From Elusimicrobiota bacterium (GTDB lineage: Bacteria; Elusimicrobiota; UBA8919), in contig JAQUMH010000001.1 of the NCBI GenBank assembly GCA_028718185.1, forward strand, positions 591,186 to 655,185: a stretch of DNA of 64,000 nt, given 5' to 3'. The first letter of the stretch is position 1; every line of letters begins with the position of its first letter. The position numbers and the translations under genes were made by a program. Positions 55,541-60,785 of the stretch are shown here, one piece after another. The notes below the pieces were generated by a model that saw only the letters and a program-made list of their open reading frames with translations, did no database searches and had not been told where the DNA came from.

Positions 55541-56497
55541 TCATTTGAACTTATAGTTAATGGAAAATATGTGAGTGTCGCTAAGCGGATCAAACGGCAG
55601 ATATGCATAATCAACTGTTATTAAATCAAAAACTATTCCAATCCCAAGCGTAATCCTTGAAGATGTCTCAAAAGACGAATCAAACTTATAACCACCCCTT
55701 AAATTTAGGATATCATAAATTAGTATTTCAGTACCGATATCAGCATAGGGTTTAGAGTCCCTCATTAATACAAAATCTGATGACATTAACAGGATTTTGC
55801 CGAGCGGGCGGTATGAAATCCCGGCAACGAATTTAGTAGGAAGGTTCTCTTTGACATCAATATATTTATGCCTTTTTAATTCTATATTCTGAATATTTAA
55901 TCCGGCAGTAAATATTTTGTATGAATTTATTTTCTTTTCATATATAGTACCTATATCAATTGCCAGAGCAACAGATTTTTTATCATCAATTTTGCTTTCA
56001 ATATACTTAGAACTTAACCCAAATGAAATGTTTTTATTTAACAAATATGAAATACCTATAACTGAAGATAAATCATGAGAACTGAACTCCTCTATTTGTG
56101 AAGTTTGAGTTTCCATTCCTTTAATCCCGCTTATGCCAAGATATTCGATACCAAATCCAAGTGAAAATCTGTTTCTTAACGGCATAATACAAGACACATT
56201 CTCAAATTTCATATCTTCAAGCCACTCGCTATGCGATAATGATACTTTCGTTTCATTCGTAAATCCCAAACCTGCAATATTATAAAAAACTGCTGTTGAA
56301 TCATCCGATACCGATGTAAAAGCTCCTGCCATTGCCGATGCTCTCGCTCCTTTTGGTATCAGAAGAAATTCTGAGGAAGTTTTACCTGCAGCAGAAAGAC
56401 CGCTATCCACAAGCAAGAAGCAAGAAGCAAGAAGCAAGATAGTTAATAACCTGTTGATATATAAACATCCCGGTATATGATAATTTATATTTTTCAT
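55541..56497 (-). CDS. PorV/PorQ-like outer-membrane protein
   Basis: The 318-residue protein has a signal peptide followed by the PorV/UPF0164 hallmark SSEFLLIPKGARASAMAGAF and DSTAVFYNIAGLGF, and alternating strands of a FadL-type 14-strand barrel ending in HIFSINYKFK. PorV carries substrates with T9SS sorting domains through the outer membrane. The hydrophobic core of its signal peptide (LLLASCFLLV) is encoded by four heptamers (56411-56438). Start overlaps the stop of the surface protein (ATGA). A cargo protein with a matching C-terminal domain is encoded immediately upstream, so they are probably client and carrier. Confidence 0.82.
   Translation of the reverse strand: MKNINYHIPGCLYINRLLTILLLASCFLLVDSGLSAAGKTSSEFLLIPKGARASAMAGAFTSVSDDSTAVFYNIAGLGFTNETKVSLSHSEWLEDMKFENVSCIMPLRNRFSLGFGIEYLGISGIKGMETQTSQIEEFSSHDLSSVIGISYLLNKNISFGLSSKYIESKIDDKKSVALAIDIGTIYEKKINSYKIFTAGLNIQNIELKRHKYIDVKENLPTKFVAGISYRPLGKILLMSSDFVLMRDSKPYADIGTEILIYDILNLRGGYKFDSSFETSSRITLGIGIVFDLITVDYAYLPFDPLSDTHIFSINYKFK
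56411..56438. repeat. 4 x 7 bp tandem repeat in the PorV-like signal peptide
   Basis: aagcaag repeated exactly four times. It encodes the leucine-rich hydrophobic core of the signal peptide, so it is being used as coding sequence. Confidence 0.9.
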
Positions 56498-59400
56498 CTT
56501 ATTACCGCCAATTTGCCTTTTGTTTTGCCTCTGCCGTTTTTATCTTCAATATAATAGATATAAACACCCGAAGCAACGGATGGACACCAATTGTAAGTTC
56601 CGTCTGTTACTGCTTCAAATTCTTCGGCAAGACGCCCGGCAACAGTATAGATTCTAATATTTACATTTTCCGTAAGCCCATCAAATGTAACATGTGTGTG
56701 CCCCCTAGACGGTCTATACGGATTAGGATAAACAACAACGCTGTTTAAATTTAATTTTGTAACTTTTGCAAAAACACCAAATTTCGTAAAGTGGTTCACT
56801 TTTGCCGAAATAGTCTTGGATAATTTTGATGATAGTAAAACTTTTTTATTATTTTTATTATCTGAATTATTCGGGTTGTTTGTTCCGCCGTTTTTTGAAT
56901 TATCCCTGCCGTCACCTTGCCCCGGATTAGTCCCGTCGCCAAGACCTGAACGGTTATCTACATTTTTCCATTCTTTCGCTTTTTCATCCAAATAACAAAT
57001 AGTAAGATCTTCTGTTTTTACATCTGTTCCGTCAACAACACCATTATTGTCATCATCGGGAAACGGTAATGAGATTGTTATTTCTTCATCAAACTGCGAT
57101 TGCCCATCCGTAAAACTAAATTCCCTGAAAACACCAACCGGTTCTATTGAACTATTCACTGCGGGAACCGGAACTTCAGTGGTTGCTAATTCCTTTATTT
57201 CCAATATACTTCCGTCTTCAACTACCCCTACCGGAACAATTGCACTGGTGCCATCAGCTATAATTACTTCTGTCTCAGCAGGTTCAGCGGTCGTAACAGA
57301 CGTAACAGGCTCAGTAGGAACAACAGGAGTAACAGGTTCAGTAGGTGTAGTGATTTTTTCTTGTTTTATATGCTGATCATTTGGATTTACCGATGGATTT
57401 CCGTCTTCTGAAATATCCCAATTGGAATCATCCACGTAAACAGTAATTTCAACCGGATTTTCTTCCGGCAAATTTAAAAGGTCATATGCAATTGTACGAA
57501 GCCTGTATTCACCATTTTTTAATCCGGAAAGATTCCAATATACGGCAAAAGGCGGCTTTTTATCAATCATGTCTATTTTTGTCCATTCCTCACCGCTATC
57601 TTTATACTGGAATAAAACGCCTGTTGTATTAGCTGTGGCGTCAGCAATAACAGTAACCGCATTACCTTTTAAACGCTTACCATCTTTCGGTATTCTTATG
57701 CTTGCACTTGCTTCACTTTTTTTATTGATATTTACAGTGACATAATTTATATTTTGTTCTTCAGTACCTTCAATATCAACTACCCTTACTGCAAACTTAT
57801 AAAGTCCTTCATCCAGCGATTGCGAAATCCATGATGATGCATCCGGCTCTGTTAGTTCTGCAACAGGGTTAGAATAATCAATAGTTCCATGTCCCTTATC
57901 CCAGTAAATATGATATTTTGCATAATACGACTTCTCGTAGTAACCCTCATTTTTATAGTAAATATTGTACAGATCCGTCATAGATGCTAATGAGGGTTCC
58001 CATTCTATTTTCGCTTTGCATTCTACCGTGGGATATCCTTTTAGATTTCTCACCTCTTCAGGATAAATATTAATTACTGAAAAAATTGCATATGTTCCTG
58101 TCCTGTCAACGAAAGTACTGCAATAATTTTGTGATATATTTGTAACTGTTTCAAAACCTCCAATCCATTTATGTTCAACTTCGTCATATCTCAGTATAAC
58201 AAGTGTCGTCTCTTTTATACTTGTACCGTCAAGATAACCATCGTTGTCTAAATCTGCATATTGTATCACAATAGGAAGTTTTTGTGATATTATTGTATCA
58301 CTGATTGTTTTAGTTACTCCACTACTTATAGGCTCCTCTGAAATAATTGTTCTTGGTTCAGAAACGCATATCATATTTGCCGGTTTTTCCAAAAGAATTT
58401 TTCCTGTTGTTGCAGCATCGGGTTGTGAAATAGAAATGTCTAAATTTGAAACCGCAATTTCTGGCGGTATTTTTAATATGGTTAAATATCTTTTTAAATG
58501 ACTTATTTTTTCTTCTTCAAATAGTGCAGATTCCTCTTCTCCAGACAATAAAGGTCCTGATGTTTTTATCAGAATCCGTGAAGCAGGAATATCTTTAATG
58601 TTAACATCGCTGTTTTCAATTTCACTTGTAATCGGAACAATTGCAAATTTATATTCACCTACCGAATTGAGTTCCGGAGTCGTAATATTTTTATTTTCAG
58701 AATCAATAATACCGATCGGAGACGAATAGTCGATTGCGCCAGTTCCCCTATCGTAGTAAACTCTGTAAAATACTTTATCTAAACCGGCAAAATTAGTAAT
58801 ACCTATTAAATAATTATTGTTCTGTACTGCATTTACAGAAATATTGTCTAATTCAGGTAATGGAATTTCCTTTATTGATATTGTCTTAATGTCTGTTGTA
58901 GTTCTATTGCCGGATGAATCAATTGCTTCTACGTAATACGTTAAAGAAGATGAATTGTTATATTCTGCGGGAATAACTCCTGACCACAAATCACCGTTAA
59001 TATTTATCATCTGCCAGGAATTTATGCCACTATGAAGAACAACAGAAGAAATTTTAGAATTATCATTAATATCAGCAACAACAGGTATGGAAAAGTATCT
59101 AAACTGACCATCCGCAACGGGTTGAAGTATTATAGAAGGGGCAATTATATCCGAGACAACATTAAAAGCATATTTTGATACTAAATTAAGTTTCTCTACC
59201 TGAGCTGTTATAACATAATGCCCTATGGAAAATGTTTTATTAATTTTTTCCGTGTAAGTTGTTTTACCCGGCTTTAAAGTACGCGGTGTTTCTGATAAAA
59301 TAAATGTTTTATCGTCAGAATAACGATATAGATTGTCAATTGTAAAATCAAATATTTTTGTTGAAGGGAAATCTAAAACTTGGGTTGAAGCTGAAGTGTT

Positions 59401-60342
59401 TTCAAGTACAATTTCAACATCTACCGGCTCGCCATATAGATATGTTGTTTTTAATGTTTTGGCTGAAAATTCAATTGCTGAAATAACAGAAAATGTTATG
59501 CCGGAACCTACTTCGCCTTCAATACCTGCAAAATCAACTGCCTGAGAAACTACATTATAGAAATGAGCCACTTTCCATATAGAAACCAGCATAGAAAATG
59601 AATTTGCATCTTCGGTTCTAACCCAAATCTCGCTGGTATTCCAACCTTGTCCATCCCAGTATGTATTATCTGTTATATCTTTAAGGCAAACTCTTGTAAA
59701 AGCAACACCGGACGCAGAATCGTTTGACTGACCATAAATCTTTGGTATATCTGAATAAACTTGTTTGTTTCCCGGAAATGAAATACCTGAATATGGCGGG
59801 CGCAAATCTATTATATAGGTTATACCATTATCGGGTGTTTCAATATTGCCCGAATTATCAGTTGCACGTGATTTTATATTATAGGTGAGGTTTTCTGAAA
59901 AGTAGGTTGAAAATTTATATGTCCATGAAGATGTTCCCTGACATACAAGCCAGATAGGATTTTCCCCGACCCAGCATTTTCCATCCCAGTATGTTTTTGA
60001 ATCGACCTGCTCAATTGCAATTTCCACTTTTTTTGTATCATAAGAGGCTGTCCCGTTTATCGGTATGTATTGGATACTATAGGCAGATTTATAAGGACTA
60101 AGAATTGTAGAAACAGCATAAATTTTTTGCGTACTAAATCCAAAAATTAAAAAACACAGGAAAACAAATTTTAAGAATGTTTCTTTATATTCTTCCGGAT
60201 CCAGGTCACTTTCACTTTTTATATTTATTAAACGTAAAAACCAATCTAAAACCGACACTCTATTGCCATTAAGTTTTATAGCAATAGGATATTGGTTCAA
60301 ACCGGTCTTTGCCTGTTTATTATAGTTCGGTAGTTCAGCCAT
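56494..60342 (-). CDS. Large surface protein with Ig-like domains and T9SS/FlgD-type C-terminal domain
   Basis: The 1282-residue protein has a hydrophobic segment at about residues 68-85 (FLKFVFLCFLIFGFSTQKIYA), preceded by an unusual 60-residue N-terminal extension. The body holds several Ig/fibronectin-like modules: two related 'TYWDGxxW' units at ~120-240, a PLDNISVNAV region, and VTVIADATANTTGVLFQYKDSG at ~930. A D-rich segment DDDNNGVVDGTDV resembles a calcium-binding dockerin-like loop. A Thr/Pro/Val-rich linker follows at ~1045. The last ~85 residues (VYPNPYRPSRGHTHVTF, YTVAGRLAEEF, ASGVYIYYIEDKNGRGKTKGKLAVIR) match FlgD/T9SS type A sorting domains. It is probably exported via PorV and exposed on the surface, under control of a riboswitch leader. 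Confidence 0.8.
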   Translation of the reverse strand: MAELPNYNKQAKTGLNQYPIAIKLNGNRVSVLDWFLRLINIKSESDLDPEEYKETFLKFVFLCFLIFGFSTQKIYAVSTILSPYKSAYSIQYIPINGTASYDTKKVEIAIEQVDSKTYWDGKCWVGENPIWLVCQGTSSWTYKFSTYFSENLTYNIKSRATDNSGNIETPDNGITYIIDLRPPYSGISFPGNKQVYSDIPKIYGQSNDSASGVAFTRVCLKDITDNTYWDGQGWNTSEIWVRTEDANSFSMLVSIWKVAHFYNVVSQAVDFAGIEGEVGSGITFSVISAIEFSAKTLKTTYLYGEPVDVEIVLENTSASTQVLDFPSTKIFDFTIDNLYRYSDDKTFILSETPRTLKPGKTTYTEKINKTFSIGHYVITAQVEKLNLVSKYAFNVVSDIIAPSIILQPVADGQFRYFSIPVVADINDNSKISSVVLHSGINSWQMININGDLWSGVIPAEYNNSSSLTYYVEAIDSSGNRTTTDIKTISIKEIPLPELDNISVNAVQNNNYLIGITNFAGLDKVFYRVYYDRGTGAIDYSSPIGIIDSENKNITTPELNSVGEYKFAIVPITSEIENSDVNIKDIPASRILIKTSGPLLSGEEESALFEEEKISHLKRYLTILKIPPEIAVSNLDISISQPDAATTGKILLEKPANMICVSEPRTIISEEPISSGVTKTISDTIISQKLPIVIQYADLDNDGYLDGTSIKETTLVILRYDEVEHKWIGGFETVTNISQNYCSTFVDRTGTYAIFSVINIYPEEVRNLKGYPTVECKAKIEWEPSLASMTDLYNIYYKNEGYYEKSYYAKYHIYWDKGHGTIDYSNPVAELTEPDASSWISQSLDEGLYKFAVRVVDIEGTEEQNINYVTVNINKKSEASASIRIPKDGKRLKGNAVTVIADATANTTGVLFQYKDSGEEWTKIDMIDKKPPFAVYWNLSGLKNGEYRLRTIAYDLLNLPEENPVEITVYVDDSNWDISEDGNPSVNPNDQHIKQEKITTPTEPVTPVVPTEPVTSVTTAEPAETEVIIADGTSAIVPVGVVEDGSILEIKELATTEVPVPAVNSSIEPVGVFREFSFTDGQSQFDEEITISLPFPDDDNNGVVDGTDVKTEDLTICYLDEKAKEWKNVDNRSGLGDGTNPGQGDGRDNSKNGGTNNPNNSDNKNNKKVLLSSKLSKTISAKVNHFTKFGVFAKVTKLNLNSVVVYPNPYRPSRGHTHVTFDGLTENVNIRIYTVAGRLAEEFEAVTDGTYNWCPSVASGVYIYYIEDKNGRGKTKGKLAVIR

Positions 60343-60354
60343 CTTGATTCAGTC

Positions 60355-60520
60355 CCTTTTATAAGGACCGCCTCTTAGATTCTGTAACTTTGCGCCCCCC
60401 CAGGAGAAACCGTTCTTATGTTCTAATGTTCTCACGTTCTCATGCTCTTTAGATTCTTAAGCACTCAAGAACTTACGAACATTAGAACTATCTCTGAGAG
60501 TTTGCCTTTTTCGACTTAAC
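60355..60520 (-). ncRNA. Second probable c-di-GMP-I (GEMM) riboswitch, with repeat insertion
   Basis: On the minus strand the conserved GGCAAA (60501-60506 region) is followed by CTCTCAGAGA, which pairs with TCTCCTGGGGG before the conserved GCGCAAAG (about 60388-60395). Together these form the P2 helix of GEMM-I. Inside the P2 loop an 80-nt octamer tract (60412-60489) is inserted, whose ends are complementary (GTTCTAATGTTC with GAACATTAGAAC), making an extra-long hairpin. The P3 side (GTTACAGAATCTAAGAGGCGG) is less canonical, so ligand binding is less certain than for the first copy. It ends about 13 bp before the start codon, so it could act on translation. Confidence 0.6.
60412..60489. repeat. 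Octamer repeat inside riboswitch P2
   Basis: gttcttat / gttctaat / gttctcac / gttctcat (four octamers), a middle of about four diverged units, and complementary units to cgaacatt / agaacta. The repeat is inserted into a structured RNA and extends an existing stem. Confidence 0.75.
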
Positions 60521-60551
60521 AGTCAATAAATAAAAAACCGAATTACCTTAT

Positions 60552-60597
60552 AATTGTCACATGCAAATGCAAAATTTGCAAATAAAATATGACAATT
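60552..60597. repeat. Inverted repeat between the two riboswitches
   Basis: AATTGTCA (60552-60559) and TGACAATT (60590-60597) are perfect 8-bp arms, and the interior has nested ATTTGCAAAT-like pairing. The location between the two aptamers suggests an expression-platform or terminator-like stem; no U-run directly follows on the minus strand. Confidence 0.5.
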
Positions 60598-60654
60598 AGC
60601 TCGGCAACTCGGCAGACCTTAAAAATCTGGATTTGACTGTTTAATTACAGTTAA

Positions 60655-60745
60655 ACACGATAAAACGGCAGCCAGACAAACCTTAAAGGTTCCGTAGCTT
60701 TGCGCCTGCCGATTGTAACACCGGCATTTGCCTTTTTCGTTACTT
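60655..60745 (-). ncRNA. c-di-GMP-I (GEMM) riboswitch
   Basis: Reading the minus strand, AAAAAGGCAAA (60736-60726) opens the aptamer. P2 follows: TGCCGGT ... AATCGGCA, with a hexanucleotide loop. The strongly conserved GGCGCAAAGCTACGG comes next (60705-60691), then a P3 arm with AACCTTTAAGGTT and the closing GGCTGCCG (60673-60666). The order GGCAAA - stem - GCAAAGC - stem - GGNNGCCG is the GEMM-I consensus. It sits at the start of the 430-nt leader of the surface-protein/PorV operon, 12 bp after a consensus promoter. It would tie this operon to c-di-GMP. Confidence 0.8.
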
Positions 60746-60756
60746 CCTTCACCATA

Positions 60757-60785
60757 ATTATAAAGTATTTTTAGGCATTTGTCAA
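60757..60785 (-). promoter_or_regulatory. Consensus promoter of the riboswitch/surface-protein operon
   Basis: TTGACA (60785-60780), a 17-bp spacer, TATAAT (60762-60757). Transcription would begin near 60750, directly before the first GEMM motif. The sequence is almost the same as at 55444-55472. Confidence 0.88.

Follow-up and report, generated by a model that had tools for sequence, protein, structure and literature searches.

Tandem arrangements of c-di-GMP-I riboswitches are known as 347 doublets and 12 triplets (PMC9481103), and Bc3-5 (PMC4759541) is a further tandem of this class. The tandems that combine two regulatory mechanisms comprise SAM combinations only, in a survey of expression platforms that the review itself calls non-comprehensive; in the SAM-II/SAM-V tandem the first switch has a terminator and the second acts on translation initiation (PMC9481103). 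The classes named as direct-occlusion riboswitches, in which ribosome-binding signals lie within the aptamer, are SAM-II/V, SAM-III, SAM-SAH and preQ1, c-di-GMP-I not being among them (PMC10907184). The c-di-GMP-I riboswitch Bc1 of Bacillus thuringiensis exerts dual effects on transcription and translation from one aptamer (PMC11218506).

The leader described here likewise contains two aptamers of one class; unlike in the c-di-GMP-I tandems above, each apparently has its own, different platform, a terminator for the first and a start codon for the second. A terminator, T1, follows aptamer 1 in seven species, and an AUG together with a Shine-Dalgarno (SD)-like motif is found in aptamer 2 in 5/5 species, which would give the order of mechanisms of the SAM-II/SAM-V tandem with a different ligand class. 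As in the direct-occlusion classes, the putative ribosome-binding signals lie within the aptamer, whereas here the SD lies on one strand of a helix and the AUG on its other strand, a hairpin separating the two. Bc1 is similar in joining a c-di-GMP-I aptamer to a terminator and to RBS/AUG effects, and differs in that it has a single aptamer, that its RBS and AUG lie outside the aptamer and that its two effects are opposite in sign. We consider it rather probable, from sequence comparison and folding, that the leader is a two-step c-di-GMP-I riboswitch, acting on transcription and then on translation, of an operon encoding a T9SS cargo and a PorV-type protein. Tandem c-di-GMP-I riboswitches being already known, what would be new is this kind of expression platform, together with the association with PorV genes; this novelty is provisional because coverage of the open literature was incomplete. 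Within that coverage no paper was found joining Elusimicrobia with c-di-GMP riboswitches, and the paper searches, incomplete to the same extent, returned no report of a direct RNA link from c-di-GMP to T9SS-type surface display.

The window, i.e. the whole 64,000-nt stretch of DNA analysed, which comes from an uncultured Elusimicrobiota bacterium, was searched with cmscan at the Rfam gathering thresholds (35 bits for RF01051, c-di-GMP-I). Exactly two matches were obtained, both to RF01051 and both on the minus strand, on which all features of the locus lie; no other Rfam family exceeded its gathering threshold in the whole window. Aptamer 1 (60664-60742; 40.4 bits, E 1.9e-4) was matched in a compact form closed by a proximal 3' strand (60681-60664), and aptamer 2 (60326-60516; 36.8 bits, E 1.4e-3) is 190 nt long and overlaps the start of the following open reading frame. 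The first-pass annotation had proposed tandem c-di-GMP-I aptamers and had named an RF01051 search as the check, with the lack of any match above threshold as the adverse outcome; both copies were recovered above the cut-off. It had also described the downstream copy as weaker on its 3' side. Aptamer 2 really extends into the reading frame as far as 60326, and it appeared weak because an end point at 60355 had truncated it. The start of the leader at a consensus promoter was confirmed, the sigma-70-type sequence TTGACA-N17-TATAAT (60757-60785) agreeing with the consensus at 12/12 positions and ending 14 nt before aptamer 1; a similar promoter precedes aptamer 1 in the related genomes G006, G007, G001, G005 and G004. 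The core GGCAAA...GCGCAAAG...GCCG/ACCG typical of RF01051 is common to both window copies. The locus departs from typical members of the family in the SD-like motif and AUG contained in aptamer 2, in long inserts at the P2 and P3 tips, and in the duplication of the aptamer 1 3' strand, which recurs at a distal site. Membership of aptamer 1 in RF03167 (c-di-GMP-I-GGC) was rejected, the score of 37.2 bits being below the cut-off of 59.

The leader is directly followed by the cargo/PorV gene pair, which is conserved together with it in related species. The surface protein of 1282 aa (56494-60342) carries a T9SS type A sorting domain at residues 1204-1272 (TIGR04183, 28.9 bits, cut-off 23), and the next gene (55541-56497), with a 4-nt overlap, encodes a PorV/PorQ-family protein (NF033709, 176.7 bits, cut-off 90), in agreement with the T9SS-type C-terminal domain and the coupled PorV-like gene recognized earlier. 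It is a PorV-family member and not PorV proper, for which the T9SS equivalog model NF033710 gave 85.3 bits against a cut-off of 250. Orthologs of the surface protein show 55-57% identity, and those in named records all belong to Elusimicrobia MAGs (UBA4817, CG06_38_11, RIFOXYD2_34_15, NC_groundwater_1671 and Zod_Metabat.39). The genome of the window contains an SprA_N match (34 bits, in a 1733-aa frame), 44 PorV-family matches above cut-off, and numerous T9SS-type C-terminal domains; its canonical GGDEF/GGEEF diguanylate cyclases number at least four. A PorU (Peptidase_C25) search gave no match, nor did its control, so that this blank says little about absence. The Ig-like region of the surface protein is matched by open frames of 14,455 aa (G011:C3) and 18,641 aa (G004:C1), and the contig with the former also has c-di-GMP-I matches at 65566 and 111412. 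The reading of the leader as c-di-GMP-I control of this operon was supported. Absent from the first-pass annotation were the inter-aptamer terminator, the start codon in aptamer 2 and the genome-wide association with PorV genes.

Relatives G001, G003, G005, G006 and G007 are assigned to the window's own family. In the orthologous operons of G001, G003, G006 and G007 the order aptamer 1-T1-aptamer 2, with the embedded AUG, is retained, the aptamer 2 orthologs of G003, G006 and G007 scoring 35.9-37.7 bits with RF01051 (cut-off 35). G004 and G005 lack aptamer 2; their leaders consist of aptamer 1 and the terminator, after which the start codon comes.

The intrinsic terminator T1 (60532-60612), which lies between the aptamers, consists of CCGAGUUGCC...GGUAAUUCGG followed by UUUUUU and is present in seven species with differing loop sequences; in G001, G003, G006 and G007 it takes the form AGCCGAGUUGCCGAA...GGURAUUCGG-UUUUU or one near it. 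It was missing from a simple terminator scan because the loop limit of the scan was 8 nt, and folding does show it. Its 5' arm doubles as the distal strand GGUCUGCCGAGUUGCCGAG (60600-60618), the duplicate of the aptamer's 3' strand, whose motif GCCGAGUUGCC occurs in 7/7 species and which is able to pair with GGCAA of the aptamer core, as judged from folds with and without the T1 3' arm. A further strand, UCCAGAUU (60624-60631), pairs in the minimum free energy (MFE) folds with UCUGG of the proximal 3' strand; this anti-proximal pairing is UCUGG/CCAGA in the window versus UCCGG/CCGGA in G003, G006 and G007, which amounts to one compensatory change. The MFE fold of the full-length window leader (-68.8 kcal/mol) combines the proximal aptamer with T1, and when the T1 3' arm is omitted GGCAA, CGG and ACCUU of aptamer 1 are paired by the distal strand instead.

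In the first step of the proposed mechanism c-di-GMP would lock aptamer 1 in its compact form with the proximal strand, leaving the distal strand free, and T1 would form. Without ligand the proximal strand would be sequestered in a hairpin of its own and the distal strand would pair with the core (GGCAA/UUGCC, CGG/CCG and ACCUU/AAGGU), by which T1 would be prevented. The window fold, together with the compensated anti-proximal strand, favours OFF for this step, and in the window OFF is judged the likelier of the two outcomes. An analogy is offered by a 33-copy element of the same genome, considered below, in which the proximal strand keeps CC in 28/28 complete copies and the distal strand has UC at that place in 11/28. 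This CC presumably includes the C that binds the ligand in the Vc2 structure, and by analogy its retention may count for the proximal, OFF form of aptamer 1.

The opposite sign for aptamer 1 is possible, though we hold it unlikely: the bound form would take up the distal strand and block T1, so that aptamer 1 would be an ON switch and, with aptamer 2 as an OFF switch, the leader would form a band-pass permitting expression only at intermediate c-di-GMP. The distal strand of the relatives does fit the c-di-GMP-I consensus (AG bulge, CCGAA); the top Rfam alignments of aptamer 1 in G003 and G007 use it (46.1 and 45.7 bits), and in G001 the 3' strand of aptamer 1 is the distal copy only. In these three relatives a distal-strand aptamer bound by ligand would block T1 and give read-through. 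Against this stand the fact that the proximal strand is transcribed first and retains GCU-N-CC in six species, the maintenance of the anti-proximal strand with a compensatory change, and the window MFE fold. We keep to the reading that c-di-GMP is probably OFF at both steps, the case being weaker for aptamer 1.

Aptamer 2 is distinguished by what it contains. The loop of its P2 is filled by a 77-nt palindromic dispersed repeat (60412-60488), which is matched in full or in part at 13 other places of the genome; in the orthologous leaders the loops are likewise filled by hairpin inserts, different in each species. The SD-like GAGG within CUAAGAGG (60371-60378) sits on the 5' side of the internal loop of P3 and overlaps the CUAAG strand of the aptamer. 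GAGG or GGAG is found there in 5/5 species, the site reading CUACGAGG in G003 and G007 and CUAAGGAG in G006 and G001. The genome has a 16S-type 3' end, GGATCACCTCCTT, the CCUCC of which is complementary to the SD-like sequence. The AUG of the surface protein (60340-60342) lies in the 3' strand of aptamer 2, within UCAAGAUGGCUGA, and is invariant in 5/5 species, the aptamers of G001, G003, G006 and G007 including AAGAUGGCUGA, which opens the surface-protein frame. A placement at the tetraloop-receptor UAUGG itself was considered and rejected, as the AUG lies two bases beyond it (CAAGAUGG), in P3 and the GG bulge.

Because the P3 hairpin carries the SD-like motif on one side and the AUG on the other, the bound aptamer should hide both. 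In the second step the ligand-bound aptamer 2 would bury them in the P3 helix and block translation, and the operon would thereby be switched off twice by c-di-GMP. An A-A mismatch in the lower P3 of the relatives counts against this. The spacer between SD and AUG, an insert at the P3 tip, varies from 27 to 111 nt between species, yet always folds into a hairpin, by which the two signals would be brought together once P3 opens. A hairpin between SD and AUG has a precedent in gene 38 of phage T4.

Seven candidates were collected as scored aptamers with a long open reading frame starting at an internal AUG; an embedded AUG as a trait of the whole phylum was rejected, as four of the seven (one in G011, one in G036 and two in G052) have a likelier ATG just after the aptamer. 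SD-like motifs as a feature of other aptamers were also discarded, pattern matches in 5/69 all falling either on the base of P3 (CUACGGG) or off the receptor strand. Many aptamers of the AUAGCAAA type, with an A signature, were seen in other Elusimicrobiota families (G027, G029, G044 and G056). At several of the A-signature loci L137, L140, L141, L142, L143, L148 and L162 the likely start codon is a few nucleotides after the aptamer.

The AUG within aptamer 2 might not be the start codon, initiation occurring further downstream and aptamer 2 acting only by way of the hairpin or terminator that follows. This is doubtful. The ATG does lie within an RNA-constrained stretch, in-frame TTG (codon 15) and GTG (codon 29) are available in the window, and the signal peptide begins about 50 codons in. 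In G001, however, no in-frame ATG, GTG or TTG besides the aptamer AUG precedes the signal-peptide core, the next TTG being within the core; the indels of the N-terminal extension after the aptamer are all multiples of three and preserve the frame, and the SD-like motif is kept in all five species. These indels and a pN/pS of 0.37-0.74 among the four relatives suggest that the extension is translated; selection on it is weak between window and relatives (pN/pS 0.78-0.95), which counts against the proposed mechanism. The absence of other start codons in G001, the retention of frame and the pN/pS values together make translation of the surface protein from the embedded AUG likely.

A strong hairpin (60248-60298; z-score -4.2) is found in the first codons of the gene in the window, at the position of a terminator, T2, of the relatives; its poor U-tract is a point against the proposed mechanism. 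In G003, G006, G007 and G001, T2 has a GC stem followed by UUUUUU and shows compensatory changes, the stems being GCCGCU...AGCGGC (G003 and G006), GCCGC...GCGGC (G007) and GCUGCC...GGCAGC (G001). Between G006 and G001 two of six pairs are altered on both sides, the changes in the 5' arm being synonymous (GCC GCU to GCU GCC). G004, which has no aptamer 2, has ACAGCUUUUCUG at this position and lacks the stem. In the relatives any ribosome that initiates at the aptamer AUG would have to traverse T2, and without a ribosome T2 should stop transcription; such a coupling is inferred from the arrangement.

It is improbable that aptamer 2 is merely a decaying copy, with aptamer 1 alone regulating, an explanation to which its lower score, the repeat inserted in P2, the imperfect lower P3 and its absence from G004 and G005 would conform. 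It scores above the cut-off in the window, G003, G006 and G007, and its core and AUG are invariant in five species, in which only the loops vary. Least of all do we expect another cyclic dinucleotide as the ligand, since, despite one A-signature (c-AMP-GMP) element in the genome (G000:C3:80010), both window aptamers have G and not A at the specificity position of GGCAAA (AAAGGCAAA) and no Hypr-type (N-S) GGDEF occurs among the eight GGDEF found in the window genome. In GEMM-I-type aptamers G at this position corresponds to c-di-GMP and A to c-AMP-GMP (PMC9481103), and c-di-GMP is the presumed ligand of both predicted aptamers. The A-signature element, L178:11-97 (G000:C3:80010-80096), with AGCAAA, is the best-scoring aptamer of the window genome and precedes ORFs of 210 and 1909 aa and a very long open frame of 18,319 aa.

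The genome of the window (G000) gave 13 RF01051 matches at E<=0.001. Eight of them are members of a family of 33 near-identical elements (e.g. L093-L122; 31 exact and two with one mismatch to CGCAAAACCNAGGGCTAAGATAG) and score 29.5-38.3 bits, seven of the eight below the Rfam cut-off, so that by score the elements can be called c-di-GMP-I-like only. They consist of a GAAA-capped P2, proximal and distal 3' strands and often a terminator. Covariation of P2 was pronounced (98.9% paired cells, 17 cells changed on both sides, 0/500 shuffles). Of the 44 PorV-family genes, 23 have an element no more than 600 nt upstream, which in 22 cases belongs to the 33-copy family and in one is a canonical c-di-GMP-I. 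Several further copies were noted upstream of other exported-looking ORFs. The 33-copy element was found neither in 19 relatives nor in the GTDB r220 contigs, a set that may omit the window's own genome.

Both aptamers, T1, the embedded AUG and the SD-like motif are conserved, and the locus appears real and functionally plausible. A wider interpretation can be offered tentatively, with less confidence than the two-step reading: aptamer 2 may be a direct-occlusion c-di-GMP-I switch acting via the SD and AUG of its P3; loss of ribosome entry may, in the relatives, fire the in-gene terminator as a riboswitch-gated attenuation; and with the 33 elements much of the PorV/T9SS surface proteome may be under direct RNA control by c-di-GMP. 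If true, the leader would represent a tandem c-di-GMP-I riboswitch whose two members act at different levels of expression. Its second c-di-GMP-I aptamer would itself bear the ribosome entry site and would thereby dictate the N-terminal residues MAELPK of the protein. It would also provide a direct RNA link, genome-wide, from c-di-GMP to the T9SS-type surface proteins in an uncultured phylum.
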